In this document: piece after piece, positions 11,546 through 37,969 of the stretch | Layout of the letters: each line of letters begins with the position of its first letter | Position numbering within the stretch: position 1 is the first letter of the stretch | Assembly (NCBI RefSeq): GCF_000756375.1 | Contig: NZ_JNFD01000011.1 | Location: 1 to 64,000, forward strand | Direction of reading: 5' to 3' | DNA from: Sphingopyxis sp. LC81 | GTDB taxonomy: Bacteria; Pseudomonadota; Alphaproteobacteria; Sphingomonadales; Sphingomonadaceae | Length of the DNA stretch: 64,000 bases | The notes under the pieces: model-generated | Told to the model about the DNA's origin: nothing | The model's input: the letters and a program-made list of their open reading frames with translations, nothing else | Databases searched by the model: none | Position numbers and translations under genes: made by a program

Positions 11546-11568
11546 AGTAATAGCAAAAAGGGGTCCTG

Positions 11569-14880: not shown

Positions 14881-14892
14881 AAACTTGCTCCC

Positions 14893-14932
14893 GGCCGGCG
14901 GCGCGTCACTGCTCCGCCGGCCTTTCTTTTTC
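14893..14932 (+). terminator. intrinsic terminator after the TonB receptor gene
   Basis: GGCCGGCGG and CCGCCGGCC form a perfect 9-base-pair stem with a 12-base loop, followed by CCTTTCTTTTTCC. It lies only 22 bases before the next gene, so it may attenuate rather than fully separate the operon, giving more receptor than enzyme. Confidence 0.85.
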
Positions 14933-14953
14933 CGCTATGGAAGGCGCTATTTC

Positions 14954-16600: not shown

Positions 16601-16625
16601 TCCGAACGGACAAAGGGAGAAGACA

Positions 16626-21998: not shown

Positions 21999-22646
21999 TT
22001 AATCGTCGACGAGCTGCTGCCTGAGATCGTCCAGCGTCTTGCGGATATGCGCATCGACCAGCACCGAAATCTTGTCCGCGTCGCGCGCAAGCCACGCCTC
22101 GAGCAGCTCGTGATGTTCCTCGTTCGCGCGCTCGTCGCGCCCCAGCGGTTCGAGGTGGACACGCACATAGCGTTCGGAGAGCACCTGCAGGCGCTCGAGA
22201 ATGGTGATCGTGACCGGCTGGCCGCACGGGCGGAACAGCGCGCGGTGGAAAGCGCGGTTGAAGGCGCCGACCCCGTCGCCATGCTCATCGGTGACATGGT
22301 CGAGCGTATCGAGCGTTTCGATCGCATGGGCGTGGTCGGCCTCGGTCGCGAGCAGCGCGGCGCGCGCGGTGGCGTCGGGTTCCAGCTTGATACGCAGCTC
22401 ATAGACTTCCTGCGCCTCCGAAGCGCTGAGCGACCGCACGAAGAAGCCGCGGTTCGCCTGGGATCGGACCAGCCCTTCCTCTTCGAGGCGGGCGAGCGCT
22501 TCGCGTAGCGGAATCTTGCTGACGCCGAGTTCGGCGGCCAGCGCGTCCTGGCGGATTGCATGTTCGCTGGAAACGCCGCCCGAAAGGATGCGGTCGCGGA
22601 CGAGGTCCACCAGCTGGTCGGACAGGTTTCGGATGATGAGGCTCAT
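21999..22646 (-). CDS. GntR-family regulator, FadR/FCD subfamily
   Basis: The ATG at 22646 follows GAGGT; the long upstream extension is noise. The 215-residue protein has a winged helix (residues about 8-70; IRQDALAAELGVSKIPLREA then LARLEEEGLV) and a C-terminal all-helical FCD domain with metal/ligand residues around FNRAFHRALF and EEHHELLEAW. FCD regulators bind short palindromes such as TNGTNNNACNA. The repeated ATCGTATACGAT sites in this region fit that pattern, and I infer this protein is their repressor, with hydroxyproline or a catabolite as effector. Confidence 0.9.
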   Translation of the reverse strand: MSLIIRNLSDQLVDLVRDRILSGGVSSEHAIRQDALAAELGVSKIPLREALARLEEEGLVRSQANRGFFVRSLSASEAQEVYELRIKLEPDATARAALLATEADHAHAIETLDTLDHVTDEHGDGVGAFNRAFHRALFRPCGQPVTITILERLQVLSERYVRVHLEPLGRDERANEEHHELLEAWLARDADKISVLVDAHIRKTLDDLRQQLVDD

Positions 22647-22653
22647 AAAGACC

Positions 22654-23652
22654 TCATAGCACCGAAAATCCATTCCAGAAGCTGTCTGCTTGATCGACCC
22701 AGATCGTGTTGAAGCCGGTCGCGATCGCCGATCCCTCGATCGAGGGAATAATGCCGGGCGTATCGCCGAGCATCGCGCTGTCCTCGACCCGTCCAATGAA
22801 GCGGCTGCAGATATAGCTTTCGTGGACGAAACGGTCGCCAACCTGCAGCCGTCCCTTGGCGACGAGATGCGCCATCCGCGCCGACGTGCCGGTGCCGCAC
22901 GGGCTGCGGTCGATCGCGCGCTCGCCATAAAAGACCGCGTTGCGGCCGTCGGCGCCTTCGCCCTTGGGCCGGTCGGTCCACATGACATGGCTGACGCCGC
23001 GGATGCGGTCGTCGACCGGATGCACCGGTTCGTACGCCGCCTGCATCAGCGAGCGAATGGTGCGGCTGAGATCGACGATCCGCGACGCACCGAGCGCGTC
23101 GAGACCGATATAAGGACCCTGCGGCTCGATGATCGCATAATAATTGCCGCCATAGGCGACATCGACCTTGAGCCGGCCGAAGCCGGGGACGTCGATTTCG
23201 ATCCCCTCGGCCGCGAGATAGGAGGGCACGTTGCGGATCCGCACCCACGCAACCCGATCGCCCTCGGTGCCATATTCGATGTCGATCGTCCCCGCGGGAA
23301 CCTCGACGCGCAACTTGCCGGGCACCCGCGGGGTAATCAGCCCATTCTCGAGCCCGAAGGTGATGAGCCCGATCGTCCCGTGGCCGCACATAGGAAGGCA
23401 GCCGCTGGTTTCGATGAACAGGATGCCGATGTCGCTGTCCGGCTGAGTGGGCGGATAAAGAAATCCGCCCGACATCATGTCGTGCCCGCGCGGTTCGAAA
23501 CAAAGGCTCGTTCGGATCCAGTCGAACCGGTCGAGAAAGTCCTGGCGCCGCTCGCCCATCGACCCACCGCGGACGAGCGGCGCACCACCGGCGACCAGCC
23601 GGACCGGATTGCCGGCAGTGTGGCCGTCGATGCAGAAGAAGGTGTGGCGCAT
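22654..23652 (-). CDS. 4-hydroxyproline 2-epimerase (proline racemase superfamily)
   Basis: The ATG at 23652 follows AGGGAGAG. The 332-residue enzyme has both catalytic cysteines of the racemase/epimerase branch: Cys89 in LPMCGHGTIG and Cys252 in SPCGTGTSARM. The related trans-3-hydroxyproline dehydratases lack the second-type arrangement. It would convert trans-4-hydroxy-L-proline to cis-4-hydroxy-D-proline in the cytosol, the first catabolic step. It lies 17 bases after the DapA-family gene and 7 bases before the GntR gene in one operon. Confidence 0.9.
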   Translation of the reverse strand: MRHTFFCIDGHTAGNPVRLVAGGAPLVRGGSMGERRQDFLDRFDWIRTSLCFEPRGHDMMSGGFLYPPTQPDSDIGILFIETSGCLPMCGHGTIGLITFGLENGLITPRVPGKLRVEVPAGTIDIEYGTEGDRVAWVRIRNVPSYLAAEGIEIDVPGFGRLKVDVAYGGNYYAIIEPQGPYIGLDALGASRIVDLSRTIRSLMQAAYEPVHPVDDRIRGVSHVMWTDRPKGEGADGRNAVFYGERAIDRSPCGTGTSARMAHLVAKGRLQVGDRFVHESYICSRFIGRVEDSAMLGDTPGIIPSIEGSAIATGFNTIWVDQADSFWNGFSVL

Positions 23653-23669
23653 GGACTCTCCCTGGCCCG

Positions 23670-24584
23670 TCAGGCTGCGATCTTGCTCGGCTGCGTCGCC
23701 GCGCATTTTTCGACCATCGCGATCACATCCTTGCGGCGCTGCCCGGCGAGCGGCATGCGCGGCATGCGGACGCGTTCGGAGCCGCGCCCCATGATCTCTT
23801 CGGCGAGCTTGATCGACTGGACCAGATCGCGGTCGGCGTCGAGATGGAGAAGCGGCATGAACCAGCGATAGATCGCCAGCGCCTCGTCATGTCTGCCCTC
23901 GTTGAAGGCCGCGACAAGGCGGACCGATTCGGTCGGGAAGGCGCTCGTCAGCCCCGAGACCCAGCCGCTGGCGCCAAGGAACAGGCCCTCGAGCGCGACG
24001 TCGTCGAGCCCGGCCATCACCGTATAGCGATCGCCGAAACGGTTGAAGACGTCGGTGAAGCGGCGGGGATCGGGCGCGCTTTCCTTGATCGCGACGATGT
24101 TGGACACGTCGCGCAGCGCCTCGAGCGTCGCGAAATCGACGTCGACGCGGTACGCGGGCGGATTGTTATAGAGCATGACCGGCAGCGAGGTCGCCTCGGC
24201 AACGGCACGGAAATGCGCCTGCAGCTCTTCGGGGGTCGGCACATAGACCATCGCGGGCAAGAGCATGATCGCATCGGCGCCGAGCTTTTCGGCATCCTTC
24301 GCATATTGGATCGCGCGCGCGGTGGTGAGTTCGGACACGCCCGCGACGACGGGCACGCGCCCGGCAACCGCCTCGACCGCGCCTTTCAGGATATTCCGCT
24401 TTTCGTCGGGCTCGAGCGAATTATTCTCGCCGCACGTGCCGAGAATGATGAGTCCGGTCACCCCGTCATCGACAAGCGCGCTCTGCACACGCTGGGTTGC
24501 ATCATAATCGACCGACAGATCTTCGGCGAATTGAGTGGTAGCTGCGGGATATACGCCCTCCCACAGTGTCCTTATCACGCTCAT
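23670..24584 (-). CDS. DapA-family lyase, probable 1-pyrroline-4-hydroxy-2-carboxylate deaminase
   Basis: This 304-residue enzyme has a class I aldolase/DHDPS barrel: GTCGENNSLEPDEK for substrate binding, the Tyr of VMLYNNPPAY, and the Schiff-base lysine in IVAIKESAPD. In operons with hydroxyproline epimerase and a D-amino-acid dehydrogenase, this family is the deaminase that turns 1-pyrroline-4-hydroxy-2-carboxylate into 2-oxoglutarate semialdehyde; the assignment rests on that context. GGAGGT five bases before the ATG marks the start. It heads the operon and is divergent from the FAD dehydrogenase gene. Confidence 0.85.
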   Translation of the reverse strand: MSVIRTLWEGVYPAATTQFAEDLSVDYDATQRVQSALVDDGVTGLIILGTCGENNSLEPDEKRNILKGAVEAVAGRVPVVAGVSELTTARAIQYAKDAEKLGADAIMLLPAMVYVPTPEELQAHFRAVAEATSLPVMLYNNPPAYRVDVDFATLEALRDVSNIVAIKESAPDPRRFTDVFNRFGDRYTVMAGLDDVALEGLFLGASGWVSGLTSAFPTESVRLVAAFNEGRHDEALAIYRWFMPLLHLDADRDLVQSIKLAEEIMGRGSERVRMPRMPLAGQRRKDVIAMVEKCAATQPSKIAA

Positions 24585-24596
24585 TCATTACCTCCG

Positions 24597-24632
24597 TTGA
24601 AGCTTCAGATCGTATACGGTATATGATACAAG
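24597..24632 (+). promoter_or_regulatory. promoter with embedded GTATAC operator, possibly leaderless
   Basis: TTGAAG (24597-24602), a 17-base spacer and TATATG (24620-24625) form a plausible sigma70 promoter for the FAD dehydrogenase gene. The operator ATCGTATACGGTATATGAT (24609-24627) covers spacer and -10. Transcription would begin at or next to the A of the ATG at 24633, so the mRNA may be leaderless; no ribosome site exists. The same site lies upstream of the divergent DapA-family gene. Confidence 0.55.
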
Positions 24633-25907
24633 ATGCCAAATGATTTTCCATCCCGCTCGTCCGATCCGCAGAATGCCGTCGTAATTGGCGGTGGCGTCGT
24701 CGGACTCGCCACCGCTCTCGCGCTACAAAAACGCGACATTTCAGTCACATTGATCGATTCGCCCTCGGCATCCCCTGCCGCATCATGGGGGAATGCGGGC
24801 CATATCGCCATCGAACAGGTCGAGCCGCTCGCGTCGCGCGCGACGATCCGCTCGATGCCGCGCCGCCTGTTCTGGCGCGGCGGCGCGCTGTCCTTGCCAT
24901 GGCGCGATATCGGCGCGTGGCTGCCCTTCTCGCTGCGGCTCGTCGCCGCGACGCGCCCCGCGCGCTTCGCGGCCGGCCGCGCGGCGCTCGGTCAGGCGCT
25001 GGGTGATGCGATGGGTTCGTGGCGCCGGCTGCTGGCCCGAATCGGCGCGGGCGACCTCCTCGTCGAGGATGGCCATTATATCCTGTGGGAAAGCGCGGCG
25101 AGCGCCGAAGCTGGCCGCGCACACTGGGCGGCGACCGATATCGGCCAAGCGACTATGCGCGATGCATCGTCCGCCGAGATGACGCGATTGGCCGCGCTCA
25201 CCTCGGCGCCGGTCGCGGCCGCGGTCCATATTGCGGGATCGGGCCAGATCGCCGATCTCGATGCGCTGGGTGAGGCGCTGCGCGCCGCATTTGACGCTGC
25301 CGGCGGTTCGCGAATCGCGGCGAGGATCGACCGGCTGGTGATCGAGGACGGCCGCGCCGTCGCCATCGCCGTCGACGGTACACGCCACGCCGCGGACACG
25401 ATGGTGATCGCGGGCGGCGCCGCGTCGGGGGCGCTGATGGCGTCGATCGGCCAGCGCGTACCGATCATCGCCGAGCGCGGCTATCATATCCAGTCGGCCG
25501 ACACCGGCTGGCCGCATGATATGCCGCCGGTGGTGTTCGAGGACCGGTCGATGATCGTCACCCGCTTCCGCTCGGGGCTGCGCGCCGCGAGCTTCGTCGA
25601 ATTCGGCCGCGGCGCCAGCCCCGCCGATCCGCGTAAATGGGCGCGGCTGCGAAAACATGTCGCGGCGCTCGGCCTGTCCTTCGGATTGCCCGGCGCCGAA
25701 TGGATGGGCGCGCGGCCGACCTTGCCCGACTATCTGCCCGCGATCGGGCGGAGCGACCGCGCGGCGAACCTCTTCTATGCGTTCGGGCACCAGCATCTGG
25801 GCCTGACCCTCGCCGCGACGACGGGCGATGCCATCGCCGCGCTCGTTGCTGGCGACGCGCCGCCCTTCGACCTCTCCCCCTTCGACCTCAAGCGTTTTGG
25901 AGCCTGA
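24633..25907 (+). CDS. FAD-dependent D-amino acid dehydrogenase, probable D-hydroxyproline dehydrogenase
   Basis: This 424-residue flavoprotein of the DadA/DAO fold has the dinucleotide motif VIGGGVVGLATALALQ near residue 17, an acidic residue ending strand 2 (TLIDS), and a C-terminal FYAFGHQHLGLTLAATTG that closes the FAD site. With the neighbouring epimerase and deaminase it is expected to oxidise cis-4-hydroxy-D-proline to 1-pyrroline-4-hydroxy-2-carboxylate, passing electrons to the respiratory chain. The start codon lies six bases after the operator. The next gene starts one base after its stop (TGACATG). Confidence 0.85.
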   Translation: MPNDFPSRSSDPQNAVVIGGGVVGLATALALQKRDISVTLIDSPSASPAASWGNAGHIAIEQVEPLASRATIRSMPRRLFWRGGALSLPWRDIGAWLPFSLRLVAATRPARFAAGRAALGQALGDAMGSWRRLLARIGAGDLLVEDGHYILWESAASAEAGRAHWAATDIGQATMRDASSAEMTRLAALTSAPVAAAVHIAGSGQIADLDALGEALRAAFDAAGGSRIAARIDRLVIEDGRAVAIAVDGTRHAADTMVIAGGAASGALMASIGQRVPIIAERGYHIQSADTGWPHDMPPVVFEDRSMIVTRFRSGLRAASFVEFGRGASPADPRKWARLRKHVAALGLSFGLPGAEWMGARPTLPDYLPAIGRSDRAANLFYAFGHQHLGLTLAATTGDAIAALVAGDAPPFDLSPFDLKRFGA

Positions 25908-25908
25908 C

Positions 25909-27111
25909 ATGACCAACGGAATCGGCGGATCGACCGCCGCACAGGAACTCGCCGCCATCGCCCCCTGGGCCGATCGCGCCGCGCCAATCGCCGCGGCGGA
26001 GCGCGAGGAGCGCATCGAAAAGGCGCGGCGGCTGATGCACGCGAACGGCGCCGATGCGCTGCTGGTCGGGGCGGGCGCGAGCCTGCGCTATTACGCGGGC
26101 ATCCCGTGGGGCGCGAGCGAGCGGCTCGTCGCGATGCTGCTGCCGCGTACGGGAAAACCCATCGTCATCGCGCCCGCGTTCGAGCTCGGCACGCTCGAGG
26201 CCGACCTCAAGATCGAGGTCGAGTTGCGATTGTGGGAGGAGGATGAGAGCCCGTCCGAACTGGTGGTCGGTGCCTTGCGCGAGGTTGGTGCGACCAGGCT
26301 CGCAATCGATCCGGGCATGGCGTTCCTGTTCGTCGATCGCATCCGCCGCGCCGGTCCGGCGCTCGACATCGTCGACGGCGGGCCGATTGTCGACGGCTGC
26401 CGGATGGTCAAATCCGCCACCGAACTCGCGCTGCTCCAGCAGGCGAAGTCGATGACGCTCGAAGTGCATCGCCGCGCCGCACGCATCCTCGCCCCCGGCA
26501 TCCGCGCGAGCGAGGTCACGCGCTTTCTGGAGGAGGCGCACCGCAAAATCGGAGCGCCGGGCGGCAACAGCTTCTGCATCGTCCAGTTCGGCCGTTCGAC
26601 CGCCTTTCCGCACGGGCTTCCCGGCGACGCGCAATTGCACGAAGGCGACGTCGTGCTGATCGATGTCGGCTGCGTTATCGAGGGCTATAACTCGGACATC
26701 ACCCGCACCTATGTTTTCGGCGACGCCGATGCGGAGCAGCGGCATATCTGGGCGCTCGAAAAGGAAGCGCAGGCCGCGGCCTTCGACGCCGCGCTGCCCG
26801 GCGCGCCGTGCGAGGCGGTCGATGCCGCGGCACGCGCCGTGCTGGAGAGGGCGGGGCTCGGCCCCGACTATCGCTTGCCCGGCCTGCCGCACCGCACCGG
26901 CCACGGCATCGGGCTGTCGATCCACGAGCCCGCCTATCTGGTGCGCGGCGACACGACCCCGCTCGCACCCGGCATGTGTTTTTCGAACGAGCCGATGATC
27001 GTTATCCCCGACCGCTTTGGCATCCGGCTCGAGGATCATTTCTATATGACCGAAAGCGGCGCCAAATGGTTCACCGAACCCTCGCCCGCGATCGACCGGC
27101 CGTTCGGCTGA
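25909..27111 (+). CDS. M24 family peptidase, probable Xaa-Pro dipeptidase
   Basis: The ATG at 25909 follows GGAG and starts one base after the upstream stop. The 400-residue protein has a creatinase N-domain (about 1-150) and a pita-bread domain with all five metal ligands visible: Asp in VLIDVG, Asp in NSDITRT, His in GHGIGLSIHEP, Glu in SNEPM and Glu in RLEDHF. Prolidases of this family release proline or hydroxyproline from dipeptides in the cytosol, which would feed the hydroxyproline pathway encoded around it. Confidence 0.88.
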   Translation: MTNGIGGSTAAQELAAIAPWADRAAPIAAAEREERIEKARRLMHANGADALLVGAGASLRYYAGIPWGASERLVAMLLPRTGKPIVIAPAFELGTLEADLKIEVELRLWEEDESPSELVVGALREVGATRLAIDPGMAFLFVDRIRRAGPALDIVDGGPIVDGCRMVKSATELALLQQAKSMTLEVHRRAARILAPGIRASEVTRFLEEAHRKIGAPGGNSFCIVQFGRSTAFPHGLPGDAQLHEGDVVLIDVGCVIEGYNSDITRTYVFGDADAEQRHIWALEKEAQAAAFDAALPGAPCEAVDAAARAVLERAGLGPDYRLPGLPHRTGHGIGLSIHEPAYLVRGDTTPLAPGMCFSNEPMIVIPDRFGIRLEDHFYMTESGAKWFTEPSPAIDRPFG

Positions 27112-27112: not shown

Positions 27113-28129
27113 CTAGTCCAGCAGCGCGCGCACGTCGTCGTAGAGCGGGCGCGGCACCTGCACGCCATTGGCGAGGCTGCGCGCGCGCGCTTCGAAGCGG
27201 CGCTGGGAAGGTAAGCGCGCACCTTGCCCGGTGATCGCGTCGAATATCGCTTCGGCACGTTCGATATGCTTCGCCGCCTCGGCGCCGAGGAAGCCCGCGG
27301 GATCGATCGCGAGAATGAATTCGCCGCCGATCGGCGATGAGCCGGCGCCATCGTCGAGCGCGATCGATTCGGCGCTGGTGAGATCGCCGATCAGCGGCCC
27401 CGCGATCAGTTCGACCATCGTCGCGAGCGCCGACCCCTTGTGTCCGCCGAATGTCAGCATCGCGCCGTCGAGCGCGGCTTTGGCATCGGTCGTTGGCCGC
27501 CCTTCGGCGTCGATGCCCCAGCCTTCGGGAATCGGCTTGCCTGCGCGGCGATGCAGTTCGATCTCGCCGCGCGCGACCGCGCTCGTCGCGAAATCGAAGA
27601 TATAGGGATAGGCGCCAGGGCGCGGCCAGCCGAACGCGATCGGGTTGGTACCGAACAAGGGTTTGATGCCGCCGGCGGGCGCGACCCACGCGTGGCTGGG
27701 GGTGCAGGCGAAGGCGACGAGGCCCGCGGCGGCAACCGCTTCGACCTCGGGCCAGAGCGCCGCGAAATGCACGCAATTGTTGATCCCGAGCGCCGCAATT
27801 CCATTCCGCCGTGCCTTTTCGACGAGCGTCGGCAGCCCCGCGCCGAACGCGGTCTGGGCAAACCCGCCGCCCGCATCGACCCGAACCAGCGCGGGCGCGA
27901 TATCGGACACGAGGGGGGTGGCATCCTTGATCACCTTGCCTGTCTTCAGCGTGTTGACGCAAACGAGCAGGCGATAGATCCCGTGACTCGCGCATTCGTC
28001 GCGTTCGCCGGCGACGATGGTTTCGGTCACCGCCTCGACATGCTGGGGCGCGAGGCCGTGGTGCGTCAGGATTTCGCGCGACAGCGTCGCCACGTCATCC
28101 AGCGAAAGTCGGACTTTTTCGTCGCTCAT
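27113..28129 (-). CDS. Ldh2/MdhA-family oxidoreductase, probable cyclic imine (pyrroline/piperideine-2-carboxylate) reductase
   Basis: A 338-residue member of the malate/L-lactate dehydrogenase family that is unrelated to classical Rossmann dehydrogenases. Motifs include ECASHGIYRLL near residue 48, the NNCVHFAALWPEVE active-site loop, and GTNPIAFGWP for NAD(P)H. In proline/hydroxyproline clusters this family reduces 1-pyrroline-2-carboxylate or 1-piperideine-2-carboxylate; malate- or ureidoglycolate-type activity is the alternative. ATG at 28129 is preferred to the GTG one codon earlier. It is convergent with the M24 gene (1-base gap) and divergent from the GH127 operon over a shared operator. 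Confidence 0.82.
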   Translation of the reverse strand: MSDEKVRLSLDDVATLSREILTHHGLAPQHVEAVTETIVAGERDECASHGIYRLLVCVNTLKTGKVIKDATPLVSDIAPALVRVDAGGGFAQTAFGAGLPTLVEKARRNGIAALGINNCVHFAALWPEVEAVAAAGLVAFACTPSHAWVAPAGGIKPLFGTNPIAFGWPRPGAYPYIFDFATSAVARGEIELHRRAGKPIPEGWGIDAEGRPTTDAKAALDGAMLTFGGHKGSALATMVELIAGPLIGDLTSAESIALDDGAGSSPIGGEFILAIDPAGFLGAEAAKHIERAEAIFDAITGQGARLPSQRRFEARARSLANGVQVPRPLYDDVRALLD

Positions 28130-28178
28130 CACTCATCTCACAGCAAATGTTCCAAGGGCCATTATAGCAGCTTGCTAA

Positions 28179-28199
28179 ATTCGTATACTATATAATATG
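28179..28199. promoter_or_regulatory. GTATAC-type operator at the divergent reductase/GH127 promoter
   Basis: The site reads ATTCGTATACTATATAATAT. TATAAT (28191-28196) or TATGCT (28196-28201, 18 bases after TTGCTA) could be the -10 for the GH127 operon. On the minus strand TATAAT at 28166-28161 is a good -10 for the reductase gene. The operator half-site matches those at 24609 and 37949. Confidence 0.5.
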
Positions 28200-28231: not shown

Positions 28232-30622
28232 ATGATGCAAATATGGCACGTCGATCGCCGCACCCTGCTCGCGGGCGCCGCAGCCGCCGCGCTTGTCCCT
28301 GTTTTCGCCCGCGCCGCGCCCGTTTCGACCACGACTTTCGGGCCAGCCAAACCGCTGCCCCTGTCGGCAGTCCGCCTGCTCGAATCGCCCTGGCTTGAGG
28401 CGATCGAGGGCAATCGCCGTTACCTGCACGCACTCGAGCCCGACCGCCTGCTGCATAATTTTCGCGCCAGCGCGGGGCTCGAACCCAAGGGCGCGGTCTA
28501 TGGCGGGTGGGAAAGCGACACCATCGCCGGGCACAGCCTTGGCCATTATCTGACCGCCTTGTCGCTGATGTATGCCCAGACGGGCGACGAGGAATGCAAA
28601 CGCCGCGCCTCTTATATCGTCGACGAACTCGCCGCGGCGCAGGCCGCGCATGGCGACGGCTATGTCGCGGGTTTCACGCGCAAGCGCGGCGATGTCGTCG
28701 AGGACGGCAAGACGATCTTCGCCGAGCTGACGCGCGGCGACATCCGTTCGATGGGGTTCGACCTCAACGGCTGCTGGGTCCCTTTCTACAACTGGCACAA
28801 ATTGTTCGCCGGATTGTTCGACGCGCAGGAGCTTTGCGGCAATGCCAGGGCGCTGCCCGTCGCGGTCGGACTTGGCACATACATCGATGGCGTGTTTGCG
28901 GCGCTGAACGACGATCAGGTCCAGCAGATACTCGATTGCGAGCATGGCGGGATCAACGAGAGTTTCGCCGAGCTTCATGCCCGCACGAAAGACCCCCGCT
29001 GGCTGCGCCTCGCCGAACGGCTGCGCCACCGCAAGATACTCGATCCGCTCAGCGAGGGCACGGATTCGCTGCCGTGGATCCATGCCAACACCCAGATCCC
29101 GAAGATCATCGGCCTTGCGCGGCTGCACGAGCTGACCGGCAAGGCGGGCGATGCGTCGGCGGCGCGCTTCTTCTGGGAAACGGTGATCCGCGATTACTCC
29201 TATGTCATCGGTGGCAATGCCGACCGCGAATATTTCCCGGCGCCGCGGACGATCTCGAAACATATCACCGAGCAGACGTGCGAAAGCTGCAACAGCTATA
29301 ATATGCTCAAGCTCACCCGCCACCTCTACGGCTGGCGGCCCGAGGCGCGGCTGTTCGATTATTATGAGCGCGCGCACACCAACCATATCCTCGCGCATCA
29401 GGACCCGGCGACGGGCATGTTCGCCTATATGGTGCCGCTGATGTCGGGGTCGGCACGCAAATTTTCGAAACCCTTCGACGATTTCTGGTGCTGCGTCGGG
29501 TCGGGGATGGAAAGCCACGCCAAGCACGGCGATTCGGTGTGGTGGCAGAGCGGCGACACCCTGCTCGTGAACCTCTACATCGCCTCGACCGCGACATGGG
29601 AAAGCCAGGGCGCGGGTTTCCGGATGGAAACCGCCTATCCGTTCGGCGAAAACGTCGCGATCACGCTCGAAACGCTCGATCGCCCGCGTGACTTCGCGGT
29701 GGCGCTGCGGATTCCGGGCTGGTGCGAGGGCGCGGCGCTGACGGTGAACGGCAAATCCGTACCCGCGGGACCCTCTGGCGATTATGCGGTGATCCGCCGC
29801 CGCTGGGCGAAGGGCGACCGGATCGCGCTGACGCTGCCGATGCGGCTGCGCACCGAAGCCGCGAACGACGATCCGTCGACCGTCGCGCTGCTCCACGGCC
29901 CCGTCGTACTCGCTGCCGACCTCGGCCCCGCCGACCGGCCGTTCGAGGGGCCCGCTCCGGCGCTCGTCGCGGCCGACCTGCTCGCGGGCTTCGCGCCGGT
30001 CGATGCTGCGACAGGGAAGTTCCGCACGACCGGCATCGCGCGGCCCGCCGACCTCAGCTTCGCACCCTTTTACCAGCAGCGCGATCGCCGCACCGCGGTC
30101 TATTTCAAAAGCTTCGACGATGCCGGCTGGGCGCGTGAGCAGGTCGCCTTTGCCGCCGAGCATGCGCGCCAGCAGGACCTCGCGCGCCGGTCGGTCGATG
30201 TCATGAATTTGGGCGAGATGCAGCCCGAGCGCGACCATGGGCTGACCGCCAAGAACAGCTATGCCGTCACCTATCGCGGCCGTCACGGGCGCGACGCGCG
30301 CACCTTCGGCTTCTTCGAATATAGGGCGAAGGTGCGGCCGGGACCGCTGGTGCTACAGGCGACCTATTGGGGCGAAGAGCGGAACAAGCTGTTCGACATC
30401 CTCATCGACGGGACGAAGATCGCGACGCAGGCGCTCGACGGCGGGCACCCTGGCGACTTTTTCACGATCGATTATCCGATCCCGGCCGACCTGACCCGCG
30501 GCAAGGGCGAAGTTACCGTCCGCTTCCAGCCCGCCAACGACACGACACGCTGCGGCCCCGTTTTCGGCGTCCGCATCTTCACGCCCGCTTCAGCCCCCGA
30601 AACAGCCAAAGGGACGGTTTGA
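28232..30622 (+). CDS. GH127/DUF1680 glycoside hydrolase, probable beta-L-arabinofuranosidase
   Basis: This 796-residue protein has a Tat-like signal (DRRTLLAGAAAAAL) and an (alpha/alpha)6 barrel. The zinc/nucleophile set known from Bifidobacterium HypBA1 is visible: Glu351 and Cys353 in TCESCNSYNM, and the vicinal Cys420-Cys421 in FWCCVGSG, one of which is the nucleophile. Beta-sandwich domains follow (about 480-790). HypBA1 removes beta-L-arabinofuranose linked to hydroxyproline in plant extensins, which matches the hydroxyproline genes around it. AGGGGAG precedes the start. It heads a four-gene operon with a gamma-glutamyltransferase and two DUF885 peptidases. Other GH127/GH146 specificities remain possible. 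Confidence 0.87.
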   Translation: MMQIWHVDRRTLLAGAAAAALVPVFARAAPVSTTTFGPAKPLPLSAVRLLESPWLEAIEGNRRYLHALEPDRLLHNFRASAGLEPKGAVYGGWESDTIAGHSLGHYLTALSLMYAQTGDEECKRRASYIVDELAAAQAAHGDGYVAGFTRKRGDVVEDGKTIFAELTRGDIRSMGFDLNGCWVPFYNWHKLFAGLFDAQELCGNARALPVAVGLGTYIDGVFAALNDDQVQQILDCEHGGINESFAELHARTKDPRWLRLAERLRHRKILDPLSEGTDSLPWIHANTQIPKIIGLARLHELTGKAGDASAARFFWETVIRDYSYVIGGNADREYFPAPRTISKHITEQTCESCNSYNMLKLTRHLYGWRPEARLFDYYERAHTNHILAHQDPATGMFAYMVPLMSGSARKFSKPFDDFWCCVGSGMESHAKHGDSVWWQSGDTLLVNLYIASTATWESQGAGFRMETAYPFGENVAITLETLDRPRDFAVALRIPGWCEGAALTVNGKSVPAGPSGDYAVIRRRWAKGDRIALTLPMRLRTEAANDDPSTVALLHGPVVLAADLGPADRPFEGPAPALVAADLLAGFAPVDAATGKFRTTGIARPADLSFAPFYQQRDRRTAVYFKSFDDAGWAREQVAFAAEHARQQDLARRSVDVMNLGEMQPERDHGLTAKNSYAVTYRGRHGRDARTFGFFEYRAKVRPGPLVLQATYWGEERNKLFDILIDGTKIATQALDGGHPGDFFTIDYPIPADLTRGKGEVTVRFQPANDTTRCGPVFGVRIFTPASAPETAKGTV

Positions 30623-30661
30623 CGCACGGCTAATTCGACAATGAAACAGGGGGTCGCAAAA

Positions 30662-32371
30662 ATGGATAGACGCTGTCGATTGCTGGTCACGCTCGGGCTT
30701 GCGATATTCGCGCAGCCCACGCTCGCGCAGGAACAGGGCGCGAAGCCCGCGGTCCATGCCAAATCGGCGATGGCGTCCTCGTCGAACCCCATAGTGACCA
30801 AGGCGATGGTCGAGGTGATGAGGAAAGGCGGCACCGCGCTCGACGCCGTGCTGACCGCGGTCCCGATGCAGGCGGTGATCGAACCGCAGATGACGACCCT
30901 CGCGGGCGGCGTCTCGATCCTCTATTATGACGCCAAGACCCGCGAATATCATTATCTCGACGCCGAACTCGACCACACCAAGGATGCGCAGGTCGGCGGC
31001 GGCTGGGCGCAATATACCGGCGGCGGGGGCGAGCGACTGCCCGACACGTCGGGCAAGCGCATCGGCATTCCGGGCACCGTCGCGGGGCTGAAGGCGGCGG
31101 CGGACCGCTTCGGAACGCTCAAATGGGGCGATTATTTCGCCCCCGCGATCAAGCTCGCCGACGACGGTTACCCGATGTATAGCTTCCTCTATGGCGAACT
31201 GGCCGAGGCGGCGCTGACGCGGCTTTCGGCTTATCCGTCGGGGCGCGAGGAATATCTGCCCGAGGGTTATGTCCCGCCCGTCGGCACGATCGTGAAGCAT
31301 CCGCGGCTGGCGCAGGCGATGCGCCGCATTGCCGCCGAAGGACCATCATACATCTACACCGGCGAATGGGCGCAGCGCTTCGTCGCCGCGGTGCGCGCGA
31401 CCGGCGGCGGGCTGACCGCCGAGGAGCTCGCGGGGTACAAGGCGCGCTGGGAAACGCCGCTGCGCTCGACCTATAATGGTTATGAGATCATCGGCGCGCC
31501 GCCGCCGTCGACCGCGGGGACTTTGATCTCGATGGTGCTGAACGTCGTCGAGAATTACGACCTCAAGGCGCGCCCGCATTATGCGCAGTCGGCCGAAGCG
31601 CTCGAGCTGATCCGCCGTGCCTTCGGCTATGCCGAGACCGCGACCGACGAATTTGTGCGCGATCCGCTGAGCTATGATGTGCCGACCGAGATGCTGTTGT
31701 CGAAAGACAATGCGAAACGCTTCGCGGCGCAGGTGGCCGCTAGCCTGCCCAAGCCCGCGGTGGCGCCGCAGGCCTCGGCGGTGCCGGGAAGCGCGCTCGA
31801 ACTCGCCGCCACCTTCGATAGCCACGACCGCCATTCGACCGACACCAATCATCTCGTCGCGGTCGACGCAGAGGGGAATATGGCCTCGGTCACCCACTCG
31901 GTTTACGGCAGCACCTTCGCGACGGGCATGGTCGTCGACGGGATCGCGATGAACAGCGGCAATAATTTCCCCGGCAATACCGCGGGCGCCGGCCGCCGCG
32001 TCATCTCGCCCTTTCCGCCGACGATGGTCGCAAAGGACGGCAAGCCGTGGATGACGATCGGCTCGCCCGGCCTGTCGTCGCGCGCGGTGACAATCACCCT
32101 CATCAACCTGCTCGGATACGGCATGCCGCTCGAACAGGCGGTCGACGCGCCGCGCTTTCAGGGATCGCAGGCGGGGGTGCCGATGGTGGTCGAAAGCCGC
32201 GTGACGCAGGCGGTGCGCGACGAGCTCAAGACGCGCTACGGCGTCAATGTCCGCCCGACCGCCCCCTATAATTGGCACTTCGGATCGATCCAGGCGATCC
32301 AGCGCAATCCCGACGGCAGCCTGACCGGCGTCGCCGATCCTCGCCGCGCCGGCCTCGCGGCCGGTTACTGA
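30662..32371 (+). CDS. secreted gamma-glutamyltransferase family protein (paralogue 2)
   Basis: The ATG at 30662 (MDRRCRLL) is preferred to the one 21 bases earlier because AGGGGG lies upstream and it gives a clean signal peptide ending PTLAQ. The 569-residue protein has the GGT layout: KGGTALDAV, then the predicted autocleavage site HSTDTNHLVAVDAEGN with Thr nucleophile, and GSPGLSSRAVT for the oxyanion/substrate loop. It is diverged from paralogue 1. Position after GH127 and before two peptidases suggests processing of glycopeptide fragments in the periplasm. Confidence 0.87.
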   Translation: MDRRCRLLVTLGLAIFAQPTLAQEQGAKPAVHAKSAMASSSNPIVTKAMVEVMRKGGTALDAVLTAVPMQAVIEPQMTTLAGGVSILYYDAKTREYHYLDAELDHTKDAQVGGGWAQYTGGGGERLPDTSGKRIGIPGTVAGLKAAADRFGTLKWGDYFAPAIKLADDGYPMYSFLYGELAEAALTRLSAYPSGREEYLPEGYVPPVGTIVKHPRLAQAMRRIAAEGPSYIYTGEWAQRFVAAVRATGGGLTAEELAGYKARWETPLRSTYNGYEIIGAPPPSTAGTLISMVLNVVENYDLKARPHYAQSAEALELIRRAFGYAETATDEFVRDPLSYDVPTEMLLSKDNAKRFAAQVAASLPKPAVAPQASAVPGSALELAATFDSHDRHSTDTNHLVAVDAEGNMASVTHSVYGSTFATGMVVDGIAMNSGNNFPGNTAGAGRRVISPFPPTMVAKDGKPWMTIGSPGLSSRAVTITLINLLGYGMPLEQAVDAPRFQGSQAGVPMVVESRVTQAVRDELKTRYGVNVRPTAPYNWHFGSIQAIQRNPDGSLTGVADPRRAGLAAGY

Positions 32372-32389: not shown

Positions 32390-34141
32390 ATGCGAACTCT
32401 CGCTCCCGCCCTGCTGGCCGTCTCGGCCATCGCGCTTTCCGCCCCCGCCTTTGCCCAGTCGGCACCGCGGGCCGCTTCGCAGTCGGCCGACGCCCGATTG
32501 AAAGCGCTCTATGATGCCGAATGGCAGTGGCGCACCAAGGAACTCGCGCTCGATCCCGACGGCGAACGCGAGGGCAGCGACCGGCTGCCGAGCGTCGACC
32601 CCGCGAGTCAGGCGCGCCGCGCCGCCTATTGGAACAAGGCGCTCACCGAGCTGAACGAGATCCCGTTCGACCAGCTCTCGCCCGAAGAGCGGATCAACGC
32701 CGAAGTGTTCAAGACCGCGCTCGAGGAATTCGCGCTCGAACAGAAATATCGCGAGTTCGAGGACCCGTTCGGTTTCTGGACGTGGATCGCGCCGCGCGGC
32801 GGGCTGCCGGGGGCAGAGGCCTATCGCAATTATATCAAGCGGCTCGGCGACATGCCGCGCTATATCGACGAGCAGATCGTCAACATGCGCGCGGGCCTCA
32901 AGCGCGGCTTCACCAAACCGCGCGTCTCGCTCGCCGGCCGCGACGCGCCGATCGCGCCGCTGGCGTCGTCCGACGTCGACAAGAATCCGCTGTTCACCAG
33001 CTTCGCCGCGATCCCCGGCAATATTCCCGAAAGCGAACGCGCGGCCTTGGTCGCCGAGGGCCGCGCGGCGGTCGCGGCGGCTGCGCCCGCCTTCGCGAAG
33101 CTGCGTGCGTTCGTCCGCGACGAATATATCCCCAACGCGCGCGTCCCGATCGCGGGCGAGGCGCTGCCCGACGGCAAGGCCTATTATCCCGCGAAGATCC
33201 GCCAATATACGACGCTCGACCTGACGCCCGAGCAGATCTACGAAATCGGGGTCAAGGAGGTCGCGCGGATCGACGCCGATATGCAGGCGACGATGAAGAA
33301 GGCGGGATGGACGGGCGATTTTGCCGGCTTCCTCCACTTCCTCAAGACCGATCCGCAGTTCACCGCGAAATCGCCGTACGAGCTGATGGCGAAATCGGCC
33401 TATGTCGCGAACCGGATCAACGGCCAGCTCAAATTCCTCGTCGGCCATTTGCCGCGCTATCGCTTCACGATCCGCCAGACCCCCGACAATATCGCGCCCT
33501 TCGCGACCGGCGGCAACGGCGGGCTCGAGAGCTGCCTGATGAACACCTATAACCTCCCCGCGCGGCCGCTCTATACGATCCCGCCTTTGACCGCGCACGA
33601 ATGCGCGCCGGGGCACAGCTTTCAGGCCGCGCTCGCGCTCGAGGCGCCCGACCGGCCGCAGATCCGCCGCACGACCTATTTCTCGGGCTATGGCGAAGGC
33701 TGGGGGCTCTATACCGAATGGCTCGGCATCCAGATGGGCATTTACGAGACGCCCTATGACGAGTTCGGGCGCGAGACGTATGAGATGTGGCGCGCGGCGC
33801 GGCTCGTCGTCGACACCGGGCTGCACCACAAGGGCTGGACGCGGCAGCAGGCGCTCGATTTCATGAAGGCGCACACCGCATTGTCCGATCACGAGATCAC
33901 GATCGAGGTCGACCGTTACATCAACGATCCGGGGCAGGCGCTTGCGTACAAGCTTGGCGAGATGCTGATCCGCCGCAAGCGCGCCGAGGCCGAAGCGAAG
34001 CTGGGCGCCAATTTCGACCAGCGCTGGTTCCACGACACGCTGCTCGGGCTCGGGTCGGTGCCGCTGCCGACGCTCGAACGCGTGGTCGACGAATGGATCG
34101 CGGGCGGGGGCAAGAACCCCAATCCCGAACCCGCCGCCTGA
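32390..34141 (+). CDS. secreted DUF885 metallopeptidase-like protein (paralogue 2)
   Basis: A 583-residue protein with signal peptide ending APAFAQ and the zinc motif HECAPGHSFQ, followed by FSGYGEGWGLYTEW. AGGAGA precedes the start by seven bases. It is closely similar to the next gene and to the one at 16626, sharing SADARLKALYDAEWQWR near the N-terminus and GGLESCLMNTYNLP before the motif. Predicted role: periplasmic peptidase acting on products imported by the TonB receptor. Confidence 0.88.
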   Translation: MRTLAPALLAVSAIALSAPAFAQSAPRAASQSADARLKALYDAEWQWRTKELALDPDGEREGSDRLPSVDPASQARRAAYWNKALTELNEIPFDQLSPEERINAEVFKTALEEFALEQKYREFEDPFGFWTWIAPRGGLPGAEAYRNYIKRLGDMPRYIDEQIVNMRAGLKRGFTKPRVSLAGRDAPIAPLASSDVDKNPLFTSFAAIPGNIPESERAALVAEGRAAVAAAAPAFAKLRAFVRDEYIPNARVPIAGEALPDGKAYYPAKIRQYTTLDLTPEQIYEIGVKEVARIDADMQATMKKAGWTGDFAGFLHFLKTDPQFTAKSPYELMAKSAYVANRINGQLKFLVGHLPRYRFTIRQTPDNIAPFATGGNGGLESCLMNTYNLPARPLYTIPPLTAHECAPGHSFQAALALEAPDRPQIRRTTYFSGYGEGWGLYTEWLGIQMGIYETPYDEFGRETYEMWRAARLVVDTGLHHKGWTRQQALDFMKAHTALSDHEITIEVDRYINDPGQALAYKLGEMLIRRKRAEAEAKLGANFDQRWFHDTLLGLGSVPLPTLERVVDEWIAGGGKNPNPEPAA

Positions 34142-34164: not shown

Positions 34165-35952
34165 TTGCTCACGCGCACGATCCTGCTTTCGACCCTCGCC
34201 CTTCTGCCGCTCGCGCCCGCGGCGGCAGAGGCACCCGCCGCGGCTGCCCCTTCGGCCGCGGCCGCCACGCCGGGAAGCGCCGACGCCCGCCTCCGCGAGC
34301 TGTACGAGGCCGAATGGGCCTGGCGGCAAAAGGAATTCGCCCGCCGCGTCGGCGATCCGCCCTTCACCGCATCGGCCGACCATCTGCCGCGCGTCGACGC
34401 GGCGACGCAGGCGGCGCGGCAGGCCTATTGGCAAAAGACGCTCGCCGCGCTCGACGCCATCCCCGTCGACCAGCTCTCCGAAAATGAGAAGATCAACGCC
34501 GCGGTGCTGCGCACCAGCCTCGAAGCCTTCGTCGCCGAGGGCAAATACCGGATGTGGGAAATGCCGTTCAACGCCGACAGCCAGTTCTGGTCGGGGCTGA
34601 GCGCGCGGGACGCCTGGCCGTCGCTCGAGGAATATCAACGCTATATCGGCCGCATGCGCGACATCCCGCGCTATTTCGACGAGCAGATCGTCAATATGCG
34701 CGCGGGCCTGAAACGCGGCTTCAGCGTGCCGCGCGCCTCGCTCGAAGGGCGCGACGCGACGATCGCCGCCTATGTCGACACCGACCCGGCGAAAAACCCC
34801 TTCTACAGCGCCTTCACCAAGATGCCCTCGACGATCTCCGCCGCCGATCAGGAGCGGCTGCGCGCCGAAGCAAGGCAGGTGATTTCGGGGACGGTCGCGC
34901 CCGCCTATGCCAAGCTGCTGACTTTCTTCAAAGACGAGTATCTGCCCAAAGCGCGCACGACACTGGCGGCCGAGGCGATGCCTGACGGCAAGGCTTTTTA
35001 TCAGGCGCAGATTCGCGAATATACGACCACCGCGCTGACCGCAGAACAGATCCACCAGATCGGCCTCAAGGAAGTCGCGCGGATCACCGCCGAGATGGAG
35101 CAGGTGAAGGAGAAAGCGGGGTTCAAGGGCGACCTTGCGGCGTTCATCCAGTTCCTGCGCACCGACCCGCAATTTTATGCGAAGACGCCCGAGGAACTGC
35201 TCGCCTTCTCGGCGCTTGTCGCGAAGCGCGCCGACGGCCAGCTCAAATATACGATCGGTTTCCTGCCGCGCTACCGCTTCACGATCCTGCCGGTGCCCGA
35301 CGCGATCGCGCCGACCTATACCGCAGGGCGCGGCGGGCTCGATGCCTGTTTGATGAACACCTACGACCTGCCGTCGCGGCCGCTGTACCAGATCCCGGCG
35401 CTGACGCTCCACGAATGCGTCCCCGGGCACAGCTTCCAGGCCGCGGTCGCGCTCGAGACGGTGAAATGGCCGGCCTTCCGCCGCCAGACTTATTTCTCGG
35501 GCTATGGCGAGGGCTGGGGGCTCTACACCGAATGGCTCGGCACCAAGATGGGCATTTATCGCACGCCCTACGAGGATTTCGGCCGCCTTTCGTTCGAAAT
35601 GTGGCGCGCCTCCCGGCTCGTCGTCGACACCGGCGTCCATCATTATGGCTGGAGCCGCGACAAGGCGATCGACTATCTCGCGAGCCACACCGCGCTCGCG
35701 CAGCATGACGTCGAGACCGAGATCGACCGCTATATCAGCTGGCCGGGACAGGCGCTCGCCTACAAGCTGGGCGAGATCACGATCCGCCGGCTGCGCACCA
35801 AGGCCGAGGCCGAGCTGGGACCGAAGTTCGACCAGCGCAAGTTCCACGACACCTTCCTCGCCCTGGGGTCGGTGCCGCTTCCGGTGCTCGAACAGCAGCT
35901 CGAAAAATTCATCGCCGATGGCGGCGAAGGTCCGACCGCCGCCGCCCCCTGA
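34165..35952 (+). CDS. secreted DUF885 metallopeptidase-like protein (paralogue 3)
   Basis: The start is TTG: AAGGAG lies seven bases before it and the signal peptide follows directly (LTRTILLSTLALLPLAPAAA). The long upstream extension overlaps the previous gene and is not used. The 595-residue product has HECVPGHSFQ and FSGYGEGWGLYTEW. It is a tandem duplicate of the upstream gene, 23 bases away. A perfect terminator hairpin ends the operon. Confidence 0.88.
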   Translation: MLTRTILLSTLALLPLAPAAAEAPAAAAPSAAAATPGSADARLRELYEAEWAWRQKEFARRVGDPPFTASADHLPRVDAATQAARQAYWQKTLAALDAIPVDQLSENEKINAAVLRTSLEAFVAEGKYRMWEMPFNADSQFWSGLSARDAWPSLEEYQRYIGRMRDIPRYFDEQIVNMRAGLKRGFSVPRASLEGRDATIAAYVDTDPAKNPFYSAFTKMPSTISAADQERLRAEARQVISGTVAPAYAKLLTFFKDEYLPKARTTLAAEAMPDGKAFYQAQIREYTTTALTAEQIHQIGLKEVARITAEMEQVKEKAGFKGDLAAFIQFLRTDPQFYAKTPEELLAFSALVAKRADGQLKYTIGFLPRYRFTILPVPDAIAPTYTAGRGGLDACLMNTYDLPSRPLYQIPALTLHECVPGHSFQAAVALETVKWPAFRRQTYFSGYGEGWGLYTEWLGTKMGIYRTPYEDFGRLSFEMWRASRLVVDTGVHHYGWSRDKAIDYLASHTALAQHDVETEIDRYISWPGQALAYKLGEITIRRLRTKAEAELGPKFDQRKFHDTFLALGSVPLPVLEQQLEKFIADGGEGPTAAAP

Positions 35953-36052: not shown

Positions 36053-37645
36053 TCAATCGCCGAGGACAAGCGCGCCGTCGATGCGGCGCGCGATGCCCCA
36101 CGGGTTGGCGGGCTTCAGCGCCGCCGGAAGCAGGCTTTCGGGCAGATTCTGATAGCTGACCGGGCGCAGGAAGCGTTCGATCGCAAGCGTGCCGACCGAG
36201 GTGCTCCGCCCGTCCGAGGTCGACGGATAAGGTCCGCCATGCACCATCGCATGGCCCACCTCGACCCCCGTCGGCCAGCCATTGGCGAGGATGCGCCCGA
36301 CCTTGCGCTCGATCAGCGGCAGCAGCCGCGCGGCGAGCGGCTCGTCGTCGGCATCGATCTGGAGCGTCGCGGTGAGCTGACCCTCGAGCCCGGCAATCAA
36401 CGCCGCAACCTCGTCGATATCGCGGCAACGGACGATCACCGACGATGAACCGAACACCTCGTGGCCGAGCGCCGCGTCGGCGAGGAAGCCCTCGGCGTCG
36501 GTGATGAACAATGCACCGCGGGCCGCGCAAGCGCCCGGCCCTTCGGCCCCGCGCGCGACGAGCCGCGTCGCCGAATGACGATCGAGGGCATCGACGCCGC
36601 TCTCGAAGCTTTTGTGGATACCCGGCGTGAGCATCGTCGCAGGGGCGATGCCCGACAGCGCCGCGCCCGCCGCCGCGGCGAAGCGGTCGAGATCGGGGCC
36701 GTCCAGCGCGATCAGCAGGCCGGGATTGGTGCAGAATTGGCCGGCGCCCATCGTCAGCGACTGGGCAAACGCCTCGCCGAGCGCTTCCGCCCGGTTCCCG
36801 AGCGCGGCGGGGAAAAGGATGACCGGATTGATGCTGCTCATCTCGGCATACACCGGGATCGGCTCGGCGCGCGTCGCGGCGATCTGCATCAGCGCGAGCC
36901 CGCCGCCGCGCGAACCGGTGAACCCCACGGCCTTGATCCGCGCATCGGCGACGAGCGCGGCGCCCAGCGCGTTCGACGGGCCGGGCAGATAGGAGAAGAC
37001 GCCTTCGTGGAGGCCCGAGCTTGCGACCGCCGCGCGGATCGCGCGTGCGACCAGCTCGCCCGTGCCGGGGTGCGCGGGGTGGCCCTTGACCACGACCGGG
37101 CAGCCCGCGGCGAACGCCGACGCGGTGTCTCCACCGGCGACCGAGAAGGCGAGCGGGAAGTTGCTCGCACCGAACACCGCGATGGGGCCGAGCGCAATGT
37201 GCCGGCGGCGGAGGTCGGGCCGTGGCAACGGCGCGCGGTCGGGCAAGGCGGGATCGATCGTCGCGTGCAGCCAGTCGCCCGCGCGGACAAAGGCGGCGAA
37301 CATGCGCAGCTGCCCCATCGTCCGGCCGCGCTCGCCCTCGAGCCTTGCGCGCGGTAGGCCGCTCTCGGCCATTGCGCGTTCGATCAGATCGTCGCCGATC
37401 GCGGCAATGGCATCGGCGATGGCGTCGAGAAACGCCGCCCGCGCTTCGAGCGTGGTTCCGGAAAAGCTGGCGAAGGCGGCATCGGCGAGCGCACAGGCAC
37501 GGTCGACATGGCCCGCGTCCGCGGCGCCGAACGGCGGTTCGATCGTCTGTCCGGTCGACGGATCGACCGCGAGGAAGGTCTCGGTTGCACTGTCTTCGGC
37601 CGCGCCGACCAGAATCGAACCAGCTATCATTTTGGCGTCCTTCAT
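36053..37645 (-). CDS. 2-oxoglutarate semialdehyde dehydrogenase (NADP-type ALDH)
   Basis: A 530-residue aldehyde dehydrogenase of the AraE/KGSADH type: [20 protein letters not shown] for cofactor binding, FTGSRGGG, the base Glu in [10 protein letters not shown], and nucleophile Cys in [10 protein letters not shown]. It would oxidise 2-oxoglutarate semialdehyde to 2-oxoglutarate, the last step of hydroxyproline breakdown; this enzyme type also serves pentose and glucarate routes. The annotated ATG overlaps the upstream stop (ATGA); Met6 at 37630 has a better ribosome site (AAGGA) and may be the real start. Confidence 0.88.
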
Positions 37646-37941: not shown

Positions 37942-37969
37942 TTAGTACATCGTATACGATTTTGGTCAA
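37942..37969 (-). promoter_or_regulatory. promoter with palindromic operator ATCGTATACGAT in its spacer
   Basis: On the minus strand TTGACC (37969-37964) is followed after 16 bases by TACTAA (37947-37942), a plausible though weak -10. The perfect palindrome ATCGTATACGAT (37960-37949) fills the spacer, so a bound regulator would block RNA polymerase. This is the most symmetrical of the five copies found in the region. Between it and the outer-membrane gene at 38005 I see nothing else. Confidence 0.6.

Follow-up and report, generated by a model that had tools for sequence, protein, structure and literature searches.

A candidate GH146 beta-L-arabinofuranosidase in a hydroxyproline utilisation locus of Sphingopyxis sp. 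LC81

The subject of this analysis is a gene at 28232..30622 (plus strand) in a 64-kb stretch of DNA from Sphingopyxis sp. LC81 (contig NZ_JNFD01000011.1, positions 1 to 64,000), the whole of which is called the window below. The gene codes for a candidate beta-L-arabinofuranosidase of family GH146 and stands among genes for the degradation of hydroxyproline (Hyp). We consider it likely, with good though not full confidence, that the locus is a regulon for the utilisation of plant hydroxyproline-rich glycopeptides in which the GH146 enzyme removes Hyp-linked beta-L-arabinofuranose, its predicted substrate. An earlier note on this DNA had proposed that the enzyme serves the use of hydroxyproline, and we count this idea as supported; its stronger claim, that arabinose must come off first for hydroxyproline to be usable, is a conjecture.

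The GH146 gene and its protein

The open reading frame (ORF) codes for 796 amino acids (aa), and its codon-position GC resembles that of its neighbours. Pfam finds the domains PF07944 (catalytic, 406.8 bits), PF20736 (middle, 88.4 bits) and PF20620 (DUF6805) in the protein; the first two are each above cut-off, and GH127 enzymes have both of them too. It is the sole PF07944 gene found in this genome. The earlier note stated that the zinc/cysteine set Glu351, Cys353, Cys420 and Cys421 is kept, and these residues indeed stand at these positions and are invariant in 126/126 aligned homologue rows. The residues for a Cys nucleophile and a Cys3-Glu zinc site, predicted from them, are thus all there. 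Glu333 is likewise unchanged in 126/126 rows and is the likely acid/base candidate. The N-terminus carries a twin arginine at 9-10 followed by a hydrophobic stretch, and the arginine pair is kept in all 85 rows that cover the region; judged by eye, export by the Tat pathway is likely.

The same note had assigned the protein to GH127 with HypBA1 as its functional reference, and neither could be retained. When sequences of the PDB are compared the nearest solved relative is BT0349 (5opj, GH146) with 475 bits; Bll3HypBA1 (8k7x, GH146) reaches 176 bits, the Geobacillus GH127 enzyme (4qjy) 98.6 bits and HypBA1 (3wkw, GH127) 37.5 bits. An AlphaFold2 model built on an alignment of 22 sequences (pLDDT 90.7, pTM 0.88) matches GH146 folds best (35% identity), followed by Bll3HypBA1 (24%) and then GH127 (18-21%). 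As the bit scores, the tree described below and the ranking of the model folds all favour GH146, the GH127 assignment was dropped: judged from sequence and model the protein is GH146-like and not close to the characterised GH127 enzymes, and the Pfam name "GH127" is misleading for it. The Cys/Zn chemistry is reported to be common to both families (PMC10850190). With this placement the proper functional reference becomes XeHypBA1, a GH146 enzyme, and not HypBA1.

Genes of the locus

The GH146 gene heads a same-strand run GH146-GGT-DUF885-DUF885 in which 18 bp separate the first gene from the second and likewise the second from the third, and the claim that it heads an operon with peptidases therefore holds. 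It is followed by a gamma-glutamyltranspeptidase (GGT)-family protein (30641..32371, +) and a DUF885 (PF05960) protein (32390..34141, +), both with signal-like N-termini, and by a second DUF885 protein (34168..35952, +) the ORF of which opens at 33787 with the true start probably at about 34168. On the other side lies a reductase of the Ldh_2 family (27113..28132, -), probably a delta1-pyrroline-2-carboxylate reductase, since this role has been given to members of the MLD2 superfamily near proline-racemase family genes (PMC4113996).

Next to it are an M24 Xaa-Pro-type peptidase in which no signal sequence was seen (25828..27111, +), a protein of the FAD D-amino-acid oxidase family, probably a cis-4-hydroxy-D-proline oxidase/dehydrogenase (24633..25907, +), a DHDPS family protein, probably the pyrroline-4-hydroxy-2-carboxylate deaminase HypD (23670..24584, -), and the 4-hydroxyproline epimerase HypE (22654..23706, -). 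HypE scores 532.9 bits with NCBIfam NF010578, above the cut-off of 376, which is the mark of the 4-hydroxyproline epimerase of a trans-4-hydroxyproline degradation locus; what we take to be the Cys/Cys active-site motifs can be read in its sequence. Then come a GntR/FCD regulator (21999..22640, -; the ORF opens at 22988 and the GntR domain starts at residue 122), an APC-type amino-acid permease (20520..21953, -) and a second GGT-family protein with a Tat-like N-terminus (18495..20336, -). The outer genes are a third DUF885 protein (16581..18416, +), an amidohydrolase with a weak Xaa-Pro dipeptidase-type match (14885..16600, +), a TonB-dependent receptor (11947..14880, +), a Xaa-Pro dipeptidase-like amidohydrolase under cut-off (9993..11507, -) and, beyond the GH146 operon, an aldehyde dehydrogenase, probably acting on alpha-ketoglutarate semialdehyde (36053..37645, -). 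The N-termini of the GH146, GGT-like, DUF885 and amidohydrolase proteins look exported by eye and that of the M24 peptidase does not. No further glycosidase family was found among the window genes scanned (9993-47042).

The short frame 37656-37940 (-), which separates the aldehyde dehydrogenase from its operator, is probably a gene fragment; by eye it resembles what we take to be the C-terminal end of a pyrroline-5-carboxylate reductase. On another contig of the genome (C46, L238:723-6583) a lactonase-family gene, a sugar-acid-type dehydratase and a GH43 gene lie together with a TonB receptor nearby, possibly a non-phosphorylative pentose locus. We considered whether the breakdown of arabinose and that of hydroxyproline meet at alpha-ketoglutarate semialdehyde, and could not establish it: the C46 genes gave no arabinose enzyme, and arabinose isomerase was not searched for.

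The operator

The hexamer GTATAC occurs four times in the window, and all four occurrences are intergenic within this locus. They belong to TTCGTATACTAT (28180..28191) in the divergent Ldh2/GH146 promoter, which is conserved in L047-L051 and L089, to ATCGTATACGGT (24609..24620) in the divergent HypD/D-amino-acid-oxidase promoter, to TTCGTATACAGT (11537..11548) between the outermost amidohydrolase (-), which starts 30 bp from it, and the TonB-dependent receptor (+), and to ATCGTATACGAT (37949..37960), a perfect palindrome which precedes the aldehyde dehydrogenase ORF by about 300 bp. The longer pattern WTCGTATAC gives five matches at four places in the window, one of them palindromic, where 0.15 are expected, and none of 100 shuffles reaches five. 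In the whole 4.40-Mb genome WTCGTATACNNT is present at five places, four of them upstream of genes of this locus including the GH146/Ldh2 promoter, and the fifth inside a tad-type coding gene on another contig. The operator shared by the GH146 gene, the Hyp-degradation genes and the peptidases is real, as the earlier note had it for the GH146 and hydroxyproline genes. Together with the local GntR regulator it gives the locus the make-up of a HypR-type GntR regulon, in which binding of the regulator to the operator and its orthology to HypR are putative.

A search of the WTCGTATACNNT type was repeated in 14 further genomes, with places merged across strands by eye. The operator is in the GH146 promoter of all seven GH146 carriers. 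The share of their operator places that lies at the locus is 4/5 (G005), 4/6 (G007), 4/4 (G013), 4/5 (G027), 4/6 (G200), 2/2 (G382) and 2/6 (G022, where two others are 41-50 kb off on the same contig). Carriers of HypE without GH146 have 2/4 (G035), 2/3 (G018) and 2/3 (G009) of their places near HypE, and the genomes without HypE have 1 (G001), 0 (G003), 1 (G006) and 2 (G012) places altogether.

Phylogeny and the predicted substrate

The main tree, an IQ-TREE quick search, holds 75 rows and includes BT0349 and Bll3HypBA1; a second tree, by FastTree, holds 126 rows without these two reference enzymes, nine rows being omitted (seven duplicate genomes, L048 and L086). In the main tree the 39 rows of the window clade (97% SH-aLRT) have a Xanthomonadaceae clade of 10 rows (100%) as their sister group, and next outward from their union stands a proteobacterial sister clade (15 rows, 98%), while BT0349 lies outside among distant paralogues of about 40% identity. 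The node that joins the window protein to the XeHypBA1-type clade, and leaves out both BT0349 and the proteobacterial sister clade, has 97% SH-aLRT. FastTree recovers the same groups (window clade 93, union with the Xanthomonadaceae 100) and puts L125, from a short contig, at the base of the union without a clear side.

A protein of the Xanthomonadaceae clade, L207:8552-10927, is 49% identical to the window protein and has 791 aa with ASA|AQP at 43|44; the published XeHypBA1 has 791 aa and a 43-aa signal (PMC6085000). The region continues with an S9 peptidase, a GH43 gene and a GH121 candidate of 1500 aa. In this candidate Pfam finds accessory domains but no GH121 model, and the MGH1-like GH match that it gives is weak; the length given for XeHypBA2 is 1452 aa (PMC6085000). 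Because of the length, the signal boundary and these neighbours the L207 region is very likely the XeHypBA1 locus itself. Near its XeHypBA1-like gene, L207:14573-16561 (-) codes for a DUF6055 protein with a HEFMH...E zinc-peptidase motif, which by analogy may attack wall glycoproteins, an action suggested for Svx metallopeptidases (PMC9266454).

XeHypBA1 is described as preferring Ara-Hyp, with weak action on Ara2-Hyp and beta-Ara2 and, in the assays reported there, no cleavage of Ara3/4-Hyp (PMC6085000). Since its clade is the nearest one with a characterised type, Ara-Hyp would be the best substrate guess for the window enzyme. The earlier note had named placement in a clade with a different proven substrate as evidence against its proposal, and this check speaks for the note: the closest clade that has a characterised type belongs to the Ara-Hyp enzyme.

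Linkage to hydroxyproline catabolism across genomes

A GH146 gene was scored as linked when Hyp-catabolic genes were present in the flanks retrieved with it or no more than 45 kb away on one contig, with labels set by hand. The contig-level homologues are the best 80 of 591 confirmed relatives. From an order-level search 34 of 44 places outside the own genome were taken, the other 10 (39-43% identity) being left out, and from one further genome search 15 of 33 genomes with a match. Fifteen rows were left unscored for reasons including short contigs and unknown contig identity. L102, L152 and L141 were counted as linked, and six linked rows (L063, L069, L111, L115, L118, L140) rest on HypD with HypE out of view.

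Scored in this way, the window-plus-Xanthomonadaceae clade, with the window itself counted in, has 59 linked rows out of 79, against 0 of 20 in the proteobacterial sister clade (Fisher 3e-10, a statistic which ignores relatedness); among distant rows it is 1 of 12. To explain linkage on the tree, no fewer than 12 changes of state are required, where 200 label shuffles give a minimum of 29; linkage is thus clustered in the way expected of inheritance. Sphingomonadaceae make up most of the linked rows, and gene order and orientation vary widely among the loci. Within the genus a full-length GH146 is found in 6/36 genomes (two more have 32% matches only) and HypE in 9/36; all six GH146 carriers are among the nine, and the other three (L083-L085) have Hyp loci without GH146. 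Within the order 36/396 genomes have a GH146 match at E<=1e-60.

The pairing is also seen in other phyla, with Hyp enzymes 26-55% identical to those of the window. In Granulicella paludicola (L123) a GH146 nested among the alphaproteobacterial ones stands beside a HypE of its own, 33% identical to that of the window, in a locus that also has the oxidase, HypD, aldehyde dehydrogenase, DUF885 and permease. In a Verrucomicrobia bin (L141) a close GH146 has HypE, HypD and aldehyde dehydrogenase (31, 45 and 54%) about 10-20 kb off on the same contig, and in Chitinophagaceae DXS (L156) a GH146 of Bacteroidota lineage is found with HypD, aldehyde dehydrogenase, HypE, permease and oxidase. The module of GH146 and Hyp catabolism thus occurs in sphingomonads, Xanthomonadaceae, Granulicella, a Verrucomicrobia bin and Chitinophagaceae. 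The GH146 proteins of Granulicella and of the Verrucomicrobia bin (L122, L123, L141) are nested inside the alphaproteobacterial clade, which suggests that the gene has moved between phyla.

HypE was searched for genome-wide in 66 genomes. Thirty of these have a window-clade GH146 that was un- or partly linked at first (G359 is included for its second, unlinked copy); a close HypE (E<1e-160) is found in 18, a distant one in 9 and none in 3, two of the last being 2.4-2.5-Mb metagenome-assembled genomes. The 19 genomes of the proteobacterial sister clade have a close HypE in 6 cases and none in 13. All 17 Xanthomonadaceae genomes searched have HypE (37-42% identity), and in 15 of them it shares a contig with GH146 at a distance of 17-40 kb (a different contig in G613 and G419). 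In four of these regions (G485, G579, G420, G532) APC, DUF885, M24, aldehyde dehydrogenase, HypD and HypE genes run together, and in G579, the one region confirmed with Pfam for this gene, an FAD oxidase gene lies between HypE and HypD. A region of the published hypBA1/BA2/AA type is within 40 kb of a Hyp-catabolic cluster in the Xanthomonas-like genomes. Four Xanthomonadaceae loci (L211, L215, L218, L219) have an Ldh2 homologue (66-67%) 3.6-5.8 kb from GH146, and homologues of the DPP-IV/prolyl-oligopeptidase (S9) of the Xanthomonas-like locus are near GH146 in L057, L090, L098, L117, L123, L141, L146, L224 and others.

GTATAC stands within 300 bp upstream of GH146 in 34/41 linked and 15/26 unlinked-or-unknown rows (35/43 and 14/24 when L102, with the core, and L141, without it, are moved to the linked rows), against a background of 0.025 per 300 bp. 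It was seen in 0/21 rows of the proteobacterial sister clade and 1/19 distant rows, and in 0/1 for a row with a short upstream stretch. The core is kept at the unlinked GH146 genes of L068 and L124 (HypE about 190 and 101 kb off on the same contig), of L126 (1.4 Mb) and of L066 and L070 (HypE on another contig), the pattern which a trans-acting regulator would leave.

A model for the locus and its alternatives

In the model we propose, Hyp-glycopeptides would enter through the TonB-dependent receptor, and the periplasmic GH146 would hydrolyse the beta-L-arabinofuranosyl-O-hydroxyproline bond with a Cys nucleophile on Zn and Glu333 as acid/base. The exopeptidases (DUF885, GGT-like, amidohydrolases) would trim the peptide in the periplasm and the permease would bring in Hyp or Hyp-dipeptides, which the cytosolic M24 peptidase, HypE, the oxidase, HypD and the aldehyde dehydrogenase would take to alpha-ketoglutarate. 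The GntR/FCD protein would repress the operator promoters until Hyp or a derivative is present.

Several observations weigh against this model. The oxidase, HypD and aldehyde dehydrogenase are of the right superfamilies and none is above its NCBIfam cut-off. No homologue of the Xanthomonas GH121 candidate was found in the 64-kb window and the three GH43 genes of the genome are all on other contigs, so this locus alone could not trim Ara3/Ara4-Hyp. The GH146 enzymes vary in specificity, Bll3HypBA1 being beta-1,3-specific with <0.1% relative activity on Ara-Hyp (PMC10850190), and the activity of the window enzyme is a prediction. Strict linkage throughout the window-plus-Xanthomonadaceae clade had to be rejected with 20 of 79 scored rows unlinked, and the Fisher value is subject to the relatedness mentioned above. 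The unlinked rows include all six Duganella (L099-L101, L104, L105, L119), which have GH146 at 59-60% identity, no window-type Hyp genes within 10 kb and no operator core upstream; in the Duganella locus annotated (L099) the gene is flanked by a CE2-type esterase and an SDF (dicarboxylate-family) symporter, and the six are perhaps a re-purposed branch. The core is also absent from the 300 bp upstream of GH146 in 17/17 Xanthomonadaceae, where regulation must therefore differ.

The GH146 could instead be meant for plant polysaccharides such as arabinan or arabinogalactan and be merely co-regulated with, or adjacent to, a Hyp cluster for collagen or peptides. BT0349 and Bll3HypBA1 act on arabinan or arabinogalactan-protein structures (PMC10850190), the sister-clade locus annotated (L072) has its GH146 flanked on one side by an alpha-L-arabinofuranosidase C-terminal-domain protein and on the other by an alpha-galactosidase-type gene, and GH43 genes do exist elsewhere in the own genome. 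We nevertheless find this improbable, given the lack of another glycosidase family among the genes scanned, an operator which is largely specific to the Hyp locus and kept at some unlinked GH146 copies, and the nearness of the Ara-Hyp enzyme's clade.

We give very little probability to the view that the genes are neighbours by ancestry alone, frozen in an old arrangement without any functional tie. The linked rows are mostly Sphingomonadaceae, their clustering on the tree (12 changes, where each set of 200 shuffles needs 29-30 or more) is what such an arrangement would give, and the Fisher test ignores relatedness; but order and orientation of the genes vary between loci, the state changes at least 12 times, the cross-phylum pairings involve quite divergent Hyp enzymes, and the operator core is retained at unlinked copies. 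We are equally reluctant to believe that a recruited GH146 fold takes another sugar, e.g. galactose, off Hyp or an adjacent residue. The identity to the XeHypBA1-like protein is only 49%, and the related aceric acid hydrolases illustrate that the wider fold is able to change substrate. The NCBIfam model for aceric acid hydrolases matches far under its cut-off, and the invariance of the five active-site residues in 126/126 rows argues against a new substrate.

The removal of arabinose from Hyp thus remains the preferred function. A more far-reaching version, for which we would claim only a tentative status, is that this GH146 branch consists of scavengers of hydroxyproline, as nitrogen and carbon, and not of enzymes for arabinose scavenging or virulence. 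In the window locus, in which GH121 was not found, the module may be adapted to short Hyp glycopeptides with mono- or di-arabinosylation, perhaps with plant glycopeptide hormones among them, as food.

Comparison with known systems

In the literature searched, to which most subscription papers did not belong, none of the reports places a GH127/146 gene in a Hyp regulon or ties one to Hyp catabolism, and we found little on bacterial use of the amino acid, rather than the sugar, of hydroxyproline-rich glycoproteins. HypR regulons were reconstructed earlier (PMC5343134), and the main text of the paper on proline-racemase neighbourhoods has no words in glycosid- or arabin- (PMC4113996). Hydroxyproline-rich glycoproteins are a nitrogen-bearing part of plant walls. 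Xanthomonas euvesicatoria is reported not to use L-arabinose and its Hyp-arabinosidase mutants are still pathogenic, and why the enzymes are kept was posed as a question (Nakamura et al., 2018, PMC6085000). The linkage of GH146 with Hyp genes offers a testable answer, the freeing of hydroxyproline; the same pairing in many other bacteria points to a pathway dedicated to feeding on plant wall glycoproteins. The linkage also yields an operator that is conserved and, for a GH146 subfamily, a predicted substrate.

XeHypBA1 (XCV2724) of X. euvesicatoria resembles the window enzyme in being exported, about 790 aa long, of the same domain family and in the sister clade; it differs in having GH43 and GH121 partners and a role left open in its description (PMC6085000), whereas the window GH146 is under the operator of a Hyp locus and adjoins Hyp catabolism. 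BT0349 of Bacteroides thetaiotaomicron is the solved structure that matches best, with 35% identity over the fold, but its gene is placed in a rhamnogalacturonan-I locus (PMC10850190) and it groups with distant paralogues. Bll4HypBA1 (BLLJ_0089) of Bifidobacterium longum, a GH146 enzyme absent from the tree and compared by description, is reported to act on Araf-beta1-linked Hyp of a glycoprotein backbone (PMC10850190). HypBA1 (Bll1HypBA1) of GH127 has the same zinc/cysteine chemistry and Ara-Hyp among its substrates, but is described as intracellular (PMC6085000), belongs to another family and shows 37.5 bits and 18% structural identity to the window protein.

At the level of whole systems, the HypAA-HypBA2-HypBA1 cluster of B. 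longum likewise breaks down Hyp-linked beta-arabino-oligosaccharides; its published purpose is the use of arabinose (PMC6085000) and it has an ABC transporter, whereas the window pathway would serve the amino acid. In the HypR regulons of Alteromonadales GntR-controlled Hyp catabolism is extended to the release of Hyp from a structural protein, as proposed here, with animal collagen and secreted collagenases (PMC5343134) in the place of a plant-type glycosidase and exopeptidases. By this analogy the window regulon is the putative plant-glycoprotein counterpart of the collagenase-bearing HypR regulons.

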